Assembly (NCBI GenBank): GCA_022708505.1 | Contig: JAKIYP010000013.1 | Coordinates: forward strand, 1 to 43,491 | Direction: 5' to 3' | Source: Bacteroidota bacterium | Lineage (GTDB): Bacteria; Bacteroidota; Bacteroidia; Bacteroidales; Paludibacteraceae | Length of the DNA: 43,491 nt | Part shown: piece after piece, positions 13,637-41,413 of the stretch | Numbering within the stretch: the stretch's first letter is position 1 | Layout: each line of letters opens with the position of its first letter | Translations under genes and position numbers: made by a program | Notes under the pieces: model-generated | Seen by the model: the letters and a program-made list of their open reading frames with translations, nothing else | What the model was told of the DNA's origin: nothing | Databases searched by the model: none

Positions 13637-14971
13637 ATGGATATAGAAAAAATCATGTCGTCGCTCGAAGCGAAACATCCGGGAGAACAAGAGTATTTAC
13701 AGGCTGTACGGGAAGTGTTGATCAGTATCGAAGCTGTATATAACGAACATCCCGAGTTTGAAAAAGCCAAAATAGCAGAAAGAATGGTGGAGCCGGATCG
13801 GATTTTTACCTTTAAGGTGTCCTGGGTCGATGACCGGGGGGATGTGCAGGTAAATCTGGGTTACCGGGTTCAGTATAATAATGCCATTGGACCATATAAA
13901 GGCGGACTGCGATTCCACTCTTCAGTTACACTTTCCATTCTGAAGTTCCTGGGTTTTGAACAAACCTTTAAAAACGCGTTGACAACCCTGCCGATGGGAG
14001 GAGGAAAGGGTGGTTCCGATTTCAACCCGAGGGGTAAGTCGCCAGCTGAAGTAATGCGTTTTTGTCAGGCTTATATGCTGGAACTCTGGCGACATATCGG
14101 ACCCGAAACCGACATTCCCGCCGGAGATATCGGGGTAGGTGCACGCGAAATTGGATATTTATATGGTATGTATCGAAAGCTGGCGCGTGAAAATACCGGT
14201 GTGTTTACCGGAAAAGGACTTGAATACGGTGGTTCGCTGATTCGTCCGGAAGCAACGGGTTTCGGAGGCTTGTACTTTGTCAGCCGGATGCTCGAAACAG
14301 CAGGAGATAGTATGAAAGGCAAAACCATCGCCATTTCAGGTTTTGGTAATGTGGCCTGGGGGGCGGCGTTGAAAGCCACGCAAATGGGAGCTAAAGTAAT
14401 CACCATTTCTGGTCCGGATGGTTATGTGTTGGATGAAAATGGAATTTCGGGAGAAAAAATTGAATATATGCTCGATTTACGGGCTACCTGTAACGATGTG
14501 GTGGCTCCTTATGCTGAAAAATATGGCGTACCGTTTTTCCCCGATAAAAGACCGTGGGAAGTGAAGGTTGATATTGCCTTGCCCTGTGCCACGCAGAATG
14601 AACTAAATGCCGATGATGCCCGAATGCTGATAAACAATGGTGTAAAGTGTGTGGGAGAAATATCTAATATGGGTTGTACCCCGGAGGCTATAGATTTATT
14701 TATTGAACATAAAGTGCTTTATGGTCCGGGTAAAGCCGTGAATGCAGGCGGTGTAGCTACATCGGGACTCGAGATGACACAAAATGCCATGCACATTAAC
14801 TGGACAACGGCTGAAGTAGATGCGAAACTGCAACAAATCATGTCAGAAATTCATGCACAATGTGTCAGATATGGCAGAGAGGCTGATGGATACATTAATT
14901 ATATGAAAGGTGCCAATGTGGCAGGTTTTTTAAAAGTTGCAAAAGCGATGCTGGCGCAGGGGGTGGTTTGA
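13637..14971 (+). CDS. gdhA: NAD(P)-specific glutamate dehydrogenase, hexameric type
   Basis: The enzyme interconverts 2-oxoglutarate plus ammonia and glutamate in the cytoplasm. With ATG 13637 as start it has 444 residues, the usual length of the small hexameric class. A TTG six bases upstream (13631) would also open the frame, but the ATG gives the typical N-terminus MDIEKIMSSLEAKHPGE. Seen motifs are the substrate-binding GPYKGGLRFHSSV and PMGGGKGGSDF (catalytic Lys in the GGGKGG run), PAGDIGVGAREIGYLYG, the Rossmann GFGNVAWGAA and the late NAGGVATSGLEM. Coenzyme preference cannot be read with certainty; close relatives of this length are mostly NADP-linked. It stands alone, with a heptanucleotide array starting right after the stop codon. 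Confidence 0.96.
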   Translation: MDIEKIMSSLEAKHPGEQEYLQAVREVLISIEAVYNEHPEFEKAKIAERMVEPDRIFTFKVSWVDDRGDVQVNLGYRVQYNNAIGPYKGGLRFHSSVTLSILKFLGFEQTFKNALTTLPMGGGKGGSDFNPRGKSPAEVMRFCQAYMLELWRHIGPETDIPAGDIGVGAREIGYLYGMYRKLARENTGVFTGKGLEYGGSLIRPEATGFGGLYFVSRMLETAGDSMKGKTIAISGFGNVAWGAALKATQMGAKVITISGPDGYVLDENGISGEKIEYMLDLRATCNDVVAPYAEKYGVPFFPDKRPWEVKVDIALPCATQNELNADDARMLINNGVKCVGEISNMGCTPEAIDLFIEHKVLYGPGKAVNAGGVATSGLEMTQNAMHINWTTAEVDAKLQQIMSEIHAQCVRYGREADGYINYMKGANVAGFLKVAKAMLAQGVV

Positions 14972-15015
14972 AAGCGGAAAACTGAAAACTGAAAACGAAT
15001 AGCTAATAGTGAATA
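14972..15015. repeat. Heptanucleotide array (GCGGAAA / ACTGAAA / GCTAATA words)
   Basis: After the gdhA stop the sequence reads in 7-base steps GCGGAAA, ACTGAAA, ACTGAAA, ACGAATA, GCTAATA, GTGAATA and then enters the mobile-element-like unit at 15016. The same words occur in inverse orientation at 15312-15389. The two arrays thus extend the inverted repeat that frames 15016-15311. Confidence 0.85.
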
Positions 15016-15311
15016 ATGCGAATCAGGAGTAGAAAGGTTATATTATCAGAAGAATTTGAAACATGAGCGAATGTATTCTTGCTTCGTTTACGAAGCGAAG
15101 TTTTGTAACCAGTAAGCTTGCTTACTGGATCAGGAAGACTACTCAGATATATGGCTTCCGTAGGAAGCAAGCTTCATACGCTATGAGTTCGCTGCCTACG
15201 GCAGCAGAGGGTTGTAGAAGGTTTGTTCTTTCCAGTAAGCAAGCTTACTGGTTACAAAACTTTGCTTCCTACGGAAGCATAAGAAAGCACTTTTCAACTC
15301 CTGATTCGCAT
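15016..15311. mobile_element. MITE-like element, copy 1 (296 bp)
   Basis: The left end ATGCGAATCAGGAGTAGAAA (15016-15035) is mirrored at the right end, which reads ATGCGAATCAGGAGTTGAAA on the minus strand (15311-15292). Inside, 15101-15128 and 15232-15259 form a perfect 28-bp inverted repeat (starting TTTTGTAACCAGTAAGC). Each arm is itself nearly palindromic around CCAGTAAGC/GCTTACTGG. Smaller hairpins with GCTTCCGTAGGAAGC and CTGCCTACGGCAG words fill the centre. An 84-codon frame inside looks spurious. No transposase is present, so a non-autonomous element is inferred. The same ends recur at 41031-41307. Confidence 0.75.
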
Positions 15312-15389
15312 TATTAGCTATTCACTATTAGCTATTCTATTCACTATTCACTATTAGCTATTCGTTTTCCGTTTTCCGCTTTCCGCTTT
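15312..15389. repeat. Heptanucleotide array, inverse orientation
   Basis: Read on the minus strand it steps through GCGGAAA, GCGGAAA, ACGGAAA, ACGAATA, GCTAATA, GTGAATA, GTGAATA, a shortened GAATA, GCTAATA, GTGAATA, GCTAATA. It mirrors 14972-15015, so the pair would pair as an outer inverted repeat around the element. After it, 15390-15520 shows nothing beyond AT-rich leader sequence. Confidence 0.85.
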
Positions 15390-24598: not shown

Positions 24599-27500
24599 TT
24601 AATGCGACATGGTTGATACAACAACCCGTTCTCCTGCACTGGTACCCATAAACTCCGGCGCATACAAACATTGAATGGATGCCGTTCCGCCGGAGAAGTT
24701 GCCGGTGGCATTCACGAAGTATTCATCTTCAAACACATAGGTGCCTTTGGGTAAGTGACTGAAAAAGTATTGCGTAGAGGCATCCTTTACAGTTCGGTAG
24801 TAAACAACTCCTTCTTTCCAACTGCATCCCGAGAGTTGGCTAACGGGTTCGAGGTTGGCTGCCCGGTTATCTTTCAGGACTACGAATTCCAGATCCCGGT
24901 CGGTCGTAACCACCATTCTCGCGATAAGTTTGTCTCCCTTTTGTATGCTTTGCAGGGTTGCATTTACGTTTTGCCCGTTGATGGGGAAGAGTGTCTTGCG
25001 GTTATCCACGATTTGTTCGACGAACAACTGCTTTTCTACCTGTAAGGCATTACCCGACGATCTCACTTTGTCCATCTCCTGATAATATTGCCAGTACAAG
25101 GCACCCCAGGCAGGAGAAGCTGTTTCCGGCTGATTAACCCGGTTAATCGTGATGCCCTCTTTGATATCCTCTTTAGCGAGTGTTTGTTTAATATAACCGG
25201 TTCCGGGAATGCCCTGATTGGTGTCGAAAGTCTTTTTGCCGGCGGTTATGCTGAACGACTGTTTATTATTCAGCAGGTTGTTGCCGATGCCAGTGAGCGC
25301 GTAAATTGCATTCACAGAAGCAACCGGCGATTCCCATTGTTGGGTTTGTTTCTGACGCAGCAACCAGGTTTTCATCAGCGCCAATTCGGTTTCATTACCC
25401 GGGACTAAGTTAAATGCTTCCATCAGCTTTACCTGTACGCTTATAGGACGCTCGTTCCATCGATAGCCGGCTGTGTTTTTAGACCAGTATATGCCTTTAT
25501 CTGTTGTACGCAAGGAGTTCTCTTTCAGTGATTTGATGATTGCATCCACGGCAACTGGTTTGTTGGCGTGATGGAGAATCATTGCAGCCAATGCTTTGTC
25601 GTACAAACCGAATTTGTTGTGATATTGTTCCGTCTGACCGAGATAAAATGTGATAGCTTCATTCACTGAAGTTGCTGAATCTGTTGTTTTTATTTGTGCC
25701 CGCATGGCAAGTACATGCAACTGGAACGAATTGATGTTCATTTTCTTGTCATAGTCTTTTACCTGCTTTTTCAGTTGCAGGTAGTCCTTGGTAAGTTCAC
25801 CTTCAAGGTAATTCAGCGCAGGAGTTAACATCTTGTTGATGGTTTCAGAATCAGTAATAGCACGTGCCTTCAGCAACCCTTCGGCAATAAATTGGGTCAC
25901 CCAGCGACTTTCACCCATGCCATCGAACCAGGAGAAAGCACCATTGGGTAATTGCAGGTTTGAAAGTTTATCCAGATAGCATGTCTTGAGTTGCTGTTGC
26001 TGATTCAAATCGAAAAGCAGGGCGATGCGTTGTTGTTGCTCTGTTTCGTTTTTTGCTTCTGTCAGCCAGGGTGTTTCCTCGAGCAGGATGTTTTTCAACT
26101 CCTGATTTTTATTCAGGGCAGATTGAATACTGCCGGGTTCTGTTTGCTTGATTTGTTCAAATATTGTTTTGATGCGTGGATTATCCAGCAAAATATTGCC
26201 AGCCAGCGCATTTACGTACCAGGCGATAAAATAATCTACCGCGTTTTCGTTTTTCGGTTCTGCTAATGCCGGTAAAGCCTGAATGGCATACCACACCGGA
26301 TTGGCACTGAACTCAAAGGTGAGCTGACGGGTATCTACCTTGTCAATAATAGCTTGTATAGAATCAAACTTAAACTCTTTGGTGGTTTTATTACCAATGA
26401 AAACCGGGTAGCTTTCGGTGACAAGCACCTTATCGGGTAATATCGCCAAATAGCGTTGTTCGCCATCTGAAAAATTACCGGCATCAGCCACTACCTTGCA
26501 AATCAGCCATTCGTATTGATCAAAACCACTCACATCCCAGGATAAAGTAAGCGGTTTTCCATCAGCAGGGACATCCACCACATACATATTCGTATCGTTC
26601 AGCAGTACAGCTTGATCGGTTGTCGGGTCGATTAAAGTCAGTTTGACATTCGTTTTTAGTGCTTTATCCGACAGATTTACCAAACTTGCCTGCAAGGTGA
26701 GTTTATCCGATTGTCGCACGAACCGGGGCATGTTGAGCTGTACCATCAGGTCTTGCTGGGTGATAAGCTGTGCTTCCTCTTGACCGAAATACAGGTCTTT
26801 CGTATGTGCCAGCATCTTCAGGTTCCAGCGGGTCAGACTCTCCGGCATGGTGAAACTAAACTGATAATTGCCTGACTTGTCGCCTTGCAGATGCGGGTAA
26901 AAGAAAACAGTTTCGTTGAAGTTGCTGCGGATGCGGGGTGGTTGAGTCTGTGTGTCTGAAACATAACTGCGACTTTCACTTGATGTAATTACTGCATCTT
27001 CAGCAATTACTACCTCTGTGTTTCTTAAAGCGGTAATACTACCAGTGATTGCTGTTTTTCTAATTACACCAGTACCCGTCATTGATGAAAAGGTAAGAAT
27101 TTCATCGATATTCAGATTTAACCCATACCAGTTTAAACTTGGCATATAAAACTCAGGAGTATTGTTCTGTTTCTGAGCTACATACATTGGTTTGGTATGT
27201 GTCTGCTTTTGATAACTATTCCAACTGTAACTACCCGGAAATGCTCTCCTGTAAACCGGATTAAACTGCCATTGATGCGGTTTCAGTTCATCCAACGAAG
27301 CGTCATACATACCGGCAAGCAATTCTGCAATTTTACCTTTTGCTGCTGCTTCGGGGATGTTAACCGTCCAGGTAGCAGCTTCGCCCGGAAGGAGTTTGTC
27401 TCTGAAAACAGTTAACTTAGGTGTTAGTTTCTTTTCGATGATTTTTTCGGTTACGTAAACGGTTTCCTGAAATAATTTTTCGTCTCTGACAAATGTAAAA

Positions 27501-40634: not shown

Positions 40635-41030
40635 GCAAAGCCTTCCCGTCTAAGCATGTTTACCTGCCCGATTTTGAGCCGAAAAGTAAGTATTACTTTC
40701 TCTTGTTTTGCCTGATGCTTGTGTCTGACAAGCGTTGGGTAATCTTTTTCTTTCATTATTATAGAGTTTAATAATGGGGTTAATTGGATTTAACCCCTTG
40801 GGTTAATGGGGTGTATATTTAAAGGTTGGTGGTTAAAAATATATGTGGTGTAGGGAATTTTGTAGAAATTTAAATTATTTTAAAAAAGAGTATTTGTTTC
40901 AATTTAGTTGGTAATTATAACTGTATTAAGTTTAGTTATCTACAATGTTGAAAACTTTTTAACTGTATTTCATACTGTTATGAAATTATTCCCTAAATTT
41001 GGCTTGTTTTTATGCACTTAATAATAATTA

Positions 41031-41307
41031 ATGCGAATCAGTAGTAGAAAATTAGATCCCTCACTTCCGTTCGGGATGACAATTTTCACTTTGTTAATAT
41101 TGTCCGTCGGCAGAAGTCTGCAAAAACTATTCTATTCTTGCAGCGACGGGTGCTATGGTTCCCGAACCGTCGCCGTAAAGAATCTAATTATAAATGGAAA
41201 GATAGTGCGACGGTATTTGATCTTAATGAATTGTTGTCATCCCGAACGGAAGTGAGGGATCAAAGGGAACACAACGAAGGATCTAATTTTCAACTCCTTA
41301 TTCGCAT
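41031..41307. mobile_element. MITE-like element, copy 2 (277 bp)
   Basis: The left end ATGCGAATCAGTAGTAGAAA (41031-41050) and the right end, reading ATGCGAATAAGGAGTTGAAA on the minus strand (41307-41288), match copy 1. The terminal repeat continues into AATTAGATCC on both sides, about 30 bp with three mismatches. An inner perfect 28-bp inverted repeat follows (41055-41082 with 41234-41261, starting GATCCCTCACTTCCG), different from the inner repeat of copy 1. The unit is flanked by AATTA on both sides (41026-41030 and 41308-41312), a likely 5-bp target duplication. No transposase inside. Confidence 0.75.
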
Positions 41308-41413
41308 AATTAATTCTGTTGCTACCGTTGGATTATTCTTAGATAAATATTTCAGGACAAAATATCCAAAACTTTTACCAGCTATTAATGAGTACGATGG
41401 GTTAACTTTTTAA
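41308..41413 (+). pseudogene. Possible 3' remnant of a gene cut by the element
   Basis: Just past the element a frame ends in SVATVGLFLDKYFRTKYPK and LLPAINEYDGLTF before TAA 41411. The composition looks protein-like, while the upstream part of the same frame lies inside the element. No matching 5' part was found to the left of the element. Very uncertain. Confidence 0.2.

Follow-up and report, generated by a model that had tools for sequence, protein, structure and literature searches.

Candidate IS982-like MITEs with REPIN-like cargo in a Paludibacteraceae genome and its relatives

How can two short repeats on one contig have the same ends and nothing else in common? The question is raised by two places in a 43,491-nt stretch of DNA (the window: contig JAKIYP010000013.1, positions 1–43,491, assembly GCA_022708505.1, Bacteroidota bacterium, Paludibacteraceae), copy 1 at 15016–15311 (296 bp) and copy 2 at 41031–41307 (277 bp). 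The genome from which the window comes, G000 below, comprises 2.4 Mb in 149 contigs and is 75% complete. A first-pass annotation, made from the letters alone, had proposed a MITE-like family in which one mobile frame takes up different hairpin cargo. We put at about 0.75 the probability that both copies are type II MITEs of an IS982-like insertion sequence (IS), that their cargo is a REP-doublet (REPIN-like) unit which also exists alone, and that two transposases are concerned.

Results

Structure of the two copies

Both copies are bounded by inverted copies of ATGCGAATCAGKAGTWGAAA, of which only the right one of copy 2 has a mismatch (one). These ends of about 20 bp are all that the copies share, and the core sequences are unrelated; in the common ends and the unrelated cores the first-pass annotation was right. 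The features are as follows.

14971–15015: left heptamer-repeat array, site context of copy 1 outside the element; inverted partner of 15342–15389
15016–15035, + strand: copy 1, left terminal inverted repeat (TIR) of the putative IS982-like frame; 0 mismatches to the pattern, and the same ends stand beside transposase genes
15036–15078: copy 1, left linker from TIR to cargo, common to other type A copies by alignment
15079–15278: copy 1, cargo, REPIN-like unit (type A) with outer palindromes TTGCTTCG.. and ..CCTACGGAAGC
15089–15129 / 15231–15271: copy 1, cargo arms, 41 nt
15279–15291: copy 1, right linker, by alignment
15292–15311, − strand: copy 1, right TIR, by pattern match
15312–15389: right heptamer-repeat array, site context of copy 1
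41026–41030: copy 2, left target duplication AATTA
41031–41050, + strand: copy 2, left TIR, by pattern match
41052–41264: copy 2, cargo, REP-like doublet (type B), arms 41052–41082 / 41234–41264; frame-free relatives, two at C2 and one at C103
41265–41287: copy 2, right linker with a second short GAAGGATC repeat, by alignments
41288–41307, − strand: copy 2, right TIR, 1 mismatch
41308–41312: copy 2, right target duplication AATTA

The inner inverted repeat of copy 1 has arms of 41 nt that are 95% complementary (32 nt perfect), and that of copy 2 has arms of 31 nt at 97% (28 nt perfect, 41055–41082 / 41234–41261). A perfect 28-bp inverted repeat had been attributed to copy 1, and equal inner arms to both copies; the arm lengths are in fact unequal, the perfect 28 nt belonging to copy 2. 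As single-stranded DNA both copies folded far better than shuffled sequences, with z −14.8 for copy 1 and z −10.1 for copy 2 (0 of 200 shuffles in each case). The core of copy 1 consists of two inverted REPs forming a hairpin, as in a REPIN, and the REP-like doublet of copy 2 is one that we take to resemble CGTC REPs. A search of the window against Rfam at the gathering threshold matched a single tRNA and nothing else, and a known structured RNA was therefore rejected as an identity for the copies. An 84-aa ORF across copy 1 was taken as spurious.

The ends and their parent insertion sequence

Scanned at up to four mismatches, the window contained the four ends and one further match, with three mismatches, at 26093 within a long ORF, which is probably due to chance. 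G000 as a whole contained 25 end matches at up to two mismatches (reversed control, 0). At up to one mismatch the end pattern was present in 27 of 48 genomes of the genus, compared with 4 control matches in 3 genomes. A scan of one genome per species gave at least 113 stretches; among the matches listed, 93 were from Bacteroidota, 15 from Acidobacteria and 5 from others by title, some of these being MAG labels and possibly misbinned.

The first-pass annotation had called for a transposase gene with the same ends, and one was found. Ends lying 1,060–1,076 bp apart enclose such a gene in G023 (two copies), G004, G017 and G025 (another family). It has 303 codons, and is open in G023 and G004 and interrupted by one stop each in G017 and G025. 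The transposase matches the profiles PF01609 (DDE_Tnp_1) and NF033520, the IS982 model, the latter at E 2e-27 and 96.3 bits; this score lies under the 130-bit cut-off and counts against our reading. Relatives of the transposase were present in 10 of 40 genomes searched, a set lying outside G045, G054, G057 and G059. None was found in G000 (75% complete), which counts against our reading, and current mobility in G000 is thus hypothetical. Among 173 loci, 20 had a tblastn match to the transposase, and a TIR lay within 250 bp of it in all 20; most of the loci had been chosen because they contain a TIR, so the closeness alone is informative here. More distant relatives of the transposase, in G007 and G011, yielded no paired ends of the ATGCGAATCAGKAGTWGAAA kind, which likewise counts against our reading, and the relatives in a plasmid collection (301 records) were all below 60% identity.

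From sequence comparison, the ends of both copies thus appear to belong to an IS982-like IS of about 1,060–1,076 bp with a 303-aa DDE transposase. The copies resemble this autonomous IS in their TIRs, the likeness is restricted to the ends, and they hold no transposase, as is characteristic of type II MITEs.

Target duplications and the insertion site of copy 1

Duplications were counted in 65 paired elements, MITEs and IS together, with no more than four mismatches per end. The flanks were identical over exactly 5 bp in 34 of the 65 (permutation mean 3.0, maximum 10 in 2000) and over 6 bp in one. One locus, L228, offers two possible pairs, and the outer pair, with a duplication, was taken for this count; leaving L228 aside, the 5-bp duplication was present in 33 of 64 pairs (MITEs, 27 of 49; IS copies, 6 of 15). 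The MITEs therefore show a target duplication of one constant length, as expected of type II MITEs, while the low figure for the IS copies counts against our reading. Copy 2 has a clean duplication, AATTA/AATTA. Copy 1 has none (GAATA/TATTA), a further point against.

Copy 1 lies after a glutamate dehydrogenase gene and ahead of a gene for a trypsin/PDZ-domain protease. At the orthologous site in G054 the element is absent and the flanks are 97% identical, although the site is not base-perfectly empty because the flanking heptamer arrays vary. Copy 1 is also absent at the orthologous sites of G059, G057 and G006. The comparison of sites with and without an insertion that had been suggested at first pass thus gave, for copy 1, the outcome expected of a type II MITE. 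The heptamer arrays themselves (14971–15015, 15312–15389) are inverted relative to each other and follow directly on the glutamate dehydrogenase gene. The corresponding place has a related pair in G059, a pair with another heptamer as its unit in G057 and no such arrays in G006; stretches similar to the arrays occur at dozens of places in G000.

Many cores within one frame

A census of non-autonomous pairs, drawn from the loci fetched by then, kept 54 and dropped 10. Nine of those dropped had one end with five mismatches and an imperfect duplication; they include C102 and G002:C75, and in the latter the rule of pairing nearest ends had truncated an element of 218 bp. The tenth was the outer pair in L228, where two pairs overlap. 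A perfect duplication was the reason for keeping four elements in which one end had five mismatches. C102, though outside the census, was used in the comparisons of core loss and of cores with RAYT loci below, and C8, a framed type C element found later, stands outside the count.

The 50 non-autonomous elements longer than 75 bp, nearly all from Bacteroidota, fell into 20 clusters without mutual similarity at 45 bits. Like the paired elements and the end matches above, they supply the further copies that a mobile family called for, and they bear out the proposed combination of common ends with differing hairpin cores. Forty-one of the 50 interiors folded at z <= −2 (RNA parameters, 40 shuffles each). 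The nine that folded poorly, six of 83–153 bp and three longer, count against our reading. No interior had a tblastn match to the transposase, and matches to internal parts of the IS were at chance level (three short ones, best E 0.002); deletion products of the IS were therefore ruled out as the source of these 50 interiors. Three types occur in G000: type A in copy 1 and C118; type B in copy 2, C56, C18 and C14, with one-ended C32 and C104; and type C in C20 and C8. Two contig-end copies, C130 and C72, have the same flank as C118 and C56, respectively, and are probably the same loci.

Cores with and without the frame

Cores A and B and the REP parts of C also occur frame-free elsewhere in G000. 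Of 17 fetched loci with type A, three were framed on both sides, one was framed on one side, four were free and full-length, and nine were free half units (free meaning no TIR within 120 bp). The free full-length units, for instance in L053, L368 and L369, have the same outer palindromes at their start and end as the framed ones. Identity to copy 1 was 85–97% for framed type A copies and 72–75% for free full-length units. A similar mixture was found in the Saprospiraceae genome G064, where one core was examined at 13 of 14 places (a place of 21 nt was left out): five were framed, one was framed on one side and seven were unframed. In the Prevotellaceae genome G065 one core occupies about 40 places. 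Among the 22 checked, 14 had two TIRs (with at most three mismatches in 12 of the 14), four were cut by a contig end, and in four an end was decayed or absent. The cargo is a dispersed palindromic repeat in its own right.

The converse, a frame with the same linkers and the full core missing, was found for type A (L249), type B (C101, C117, L248) and type C (C102). Most of these core-deficient frames retain one palindrome, and their collapse is probably due to deletion between two REPs, as would be expected since each REP is a palindrome and the REPs are therefore direct as well as inverted repeats. C31, also without a full core, has a left end otherwise seen only in C14 among the loci fetched. 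Having no REP at all, it could be an empty frame; the left end of C14 looks recombinant.

Alignment revealed that the linkers behind the ends differ between core types. Because of this, and because framed type A copies are 85–97% identical and free ones 72–75%, the pattern fits separate captures, one per type, each then copied. The idea of one mobile frame taking up different hairpin cargo is thus upheld in that cores occur unframed and frames occur that lack a full core, but not in that a single frame would have swapped its cargo repeatedly.

Relation of the cores to RAYT-type genes

G000 has two Y1_Tnp genes, a gene family matched in 40 of the 48 genus genomes. Cores were matched against 41 of 48 Y1_Tnp loci, leaving out six partial matches and L344, whose gene has a stop. 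Core A matched doublets at the Y1_Tnp gene of G057:C89 (L315) over 48 nt at 100% (L242; copy 1 itself, 98%) and over 82 nt at 88% (L042). Such type A-like doublets lie on both sides of this RAYT-type gene, as is expected of a REPIN, and G057 itself also has framed type A copies. By sequence, then, the core of copy 1 is probably a REPIN-like unit of a RAYT-type (Y1/HuH) gene in the sister genome G057. Type A repeats were not found at the two Y1_Tnp genes of G000, which counts against our reading. The second of these genes (L217, G000:C109) is encircled by another repeat type, CAATCAAGTTGAGAATCAAGTTGGGG.

The repeats of four of the 20 core clusters adjoin Y1_Tnp genes. Besides type A, core C has 19–22 nt and a palindrome–linker–palindrome plan in common with the tandem array that surrounds the gene of G000:C90, core D has matching repeats by the genes of at least five genus genomes, G002, G045, G046, G007 and G017 (and, 566 bp away, in G065), and the core of L155/L186 matches repeats of the L339 gene in its own genome. 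Type E gave a marginal match only (E 0.006). The remaining 15 clusters, including type B, had no match in the 41 loci, which counts against our reading; the core of copy 2 was accordingly not found as a repeat flanking a RAYT gene in these loci. Binned by distance, 55 core matches fell in the 45.6 kb within 400 bp of a gene and 7 in the 80.8 kb farther away, a density about 14 times higher. Core/locus pairs numbered 87, and ten sets of shuffled cores gave 15. Of the 87, 75 come from type D, which has 14 related members; the remaining types gave 12 pairs, against 9 across the ten shuffled sets.

Discussion

On the reading favoured here, the gene-less elements would be moved in trans by a DDE transposase, encoded by an autonomous relative that shares their TIRs, leaving a 5-bp target duplication; this mobilization by the parent enzyme, like movement of the core by a RAYT, is something that we infer. 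The core and the frame of copy 1 would then answer to two different transposases, since units of this core's kind lie on both sides of a RAYT-type gene in a sister species. Capture may have occurred once per type, a REPIN becoming enclosed by two IS ends and the chimera multiplying afterwards. Entry of a REPIN into a small existing MITE seems slightly the better guess, compared with IS ends landing on either side of it. REPs are abundant, so chance capture would need no special link or mechanism. Whether IS982-like ends repeatedly capture the REPINs of RAYT systems, making a two-engine element with a second, DDE-type route of spread, is a more speculative extension that we advance tentatively. 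If it is true, REPINs, ordinarily moved by the REP/RAYT system to which they belong, could also be spread in this way within a genome and perhaps between genomes, including repeats without a transposase of their own.

The elements could instead be ordinary type II MITEs, old IS derivatives with arbitrary interiors in which REPs are present merely as common intergenic sequence and folded cores survive by ending transcription or stabilizing DNA. Both type II MITEs alike in their TIRs only (PMC10969869) and unrelated interiors under shared TIRs (PMC4596501) are already known. Some cores are unfolded and not REP-like, and solid RAYT support exists for just four of 20 clusters, with type D supplying most pairs. 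This account leaves unexplained, however, that the ends of the cargo coincide with the ends of free units, that 41 of 50 interiors fold, and that core matches are concentrated beside Y1_Tnp genes, and we regard it as unlikely.

We considered it still less likely that the elements arose by foldback, a replication template switch at a REP hairpin by a single IS end that made TIR–core–core'–TIR palindromes at once. A 54-bp element in Bacteroides oleiciplenus (L139, 1614–1667) is a near-perfect palindrome past its TIRs, the IS ends in L114 and L165 continue almost like it for a few bases, and several type B ends run on, on both sides, as GAAAATTAGAT, as the right ends of the IS nearly do. In the G065 family, as in types A and C, the left linker is unlike the right one, and this asymmetry led us to reject foldback as an account for all types. 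The 54-bp element, nearly two back-to-back TIRs with a perfect 5-bp duplication, is the smallest frame seen.

A single enzyme would suffice if the ATGCGAATC ends were recognized by a RAYT-type Y1 enzyme (a TIR-associated tyrosine transposase) that moved the whole element, and some RAYT genes are described as flanked by long TIRs in PMC3733652. The 48 Y1_Tnp loci (145 kb), however, yielded one end match, with four mismatches, whereas the ends adjoin a DDE transposase in 20 of 20 loci and accompany 5-bp duplications. Duplications of 5 bp are not a known product of Y1 enzymes. Ownership of the ends by RAYTs was therefore rejected as very improbable. Finally, that different MITE families have similar ends by coincidence, a thought invited by a shared stretch of only about 20 bp, is refuted by the matches in 27 of 48 genus genomes against 4 control matches in 3 genomes and by the end pairs with 5-bp duplications.

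The first-pass statement that no named element has this design was too strong, in view of the MITEs of P. gingivalis (PMC4596501) and an IS982-derived MITE (PMC9769881). The account of the former in PMC4596501 covers BrickBuilt and MITEPgRS (ISPg1/ISPg9, IS5 family) and MITE239/700 (ISPg3); like the present elements they belong to Bacteroidales, share TIRs with a full-length IS, have unrelated interiors under similar TIRs and contain repeats. They differ in that the ends are of the IS5 family and of other sequence and that two have tandem repeats; a RAYT link is not described in that account. MITECca01 of Cardinium (parent ISCca4) resembles our elements in its IS982-family parent, its size of about 240 bp, and the retention of inverted repeats with loss of the transposase, but has one core and retains a bit of parental sequence, and REP cargo is not part of its description in the relevant section of PMC9769881. 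REPIN/RAYT systems, as outlined in PMC3116915 and PMC6006769, likewise have inverted REP doublets, free dispersed copies and a flanked Y1 transposase gene (REPtron); the present unit occurs, in addition, within the TIRs of a DDE-type IS. QMITE2 of Coxiella is also a MITE containing a REP, of the GTAG type, but in the passage on it in PMC10969869 the REP is a target of IS1111, and its frame does not enclose a range of unrelated cores. In Anabaena variabilis and H. neapolitanus REP dimers lie inside longer palindromes, likewise enclosed by another inverted repeat, for which the relevant text of PMC3733652 names no IS, transposase or target duplication.

Each of the parts is thus in print separately: unrelated interiors between common TIRs, IS982-derived MITEs, REPs inside a MITE and REP dimers in longer palindromes. 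REPINs inside IS982 MITE frames were not found described in the open-licence literature, and the recurrent pairing of REPIN-like units with a single IS frame, framed copies existing alongside free ones, appears to be new in that we found no account of it there. It joins two kinds of small repeat that are usually studied separately. Where a genome has one REPIN-like unit both free and framed, it can also be asked which enzyme spreads it. The spread of CGTC REP families without a dedicated transposase is raised as an issue in PMC3733652, and capture by an IS frame offers a testable answer. MITE surveys that demand whole-element similarity would split the present family into many.

Two further kinds of observation were made on individual elements. 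The elements at L134 7745–7898 (a Pyrinomonadaceae MAG) and L119 1498–1769 (Bacteroides nordii) have cores of CTCTGCGTCC-type and ACACAGATTAATGCAGATT-type repeats, both of which are probably widespread. In three of the 14 two-ended elements of G065 (L280, L290 and L292) both TIRs are altered alike, from GAATCAGG to GAATTACG or nearly so, as if they had been mutually corrected or were used by another transposase subfamily; in L294, from the same genome, one end is changed and the other unchanged.
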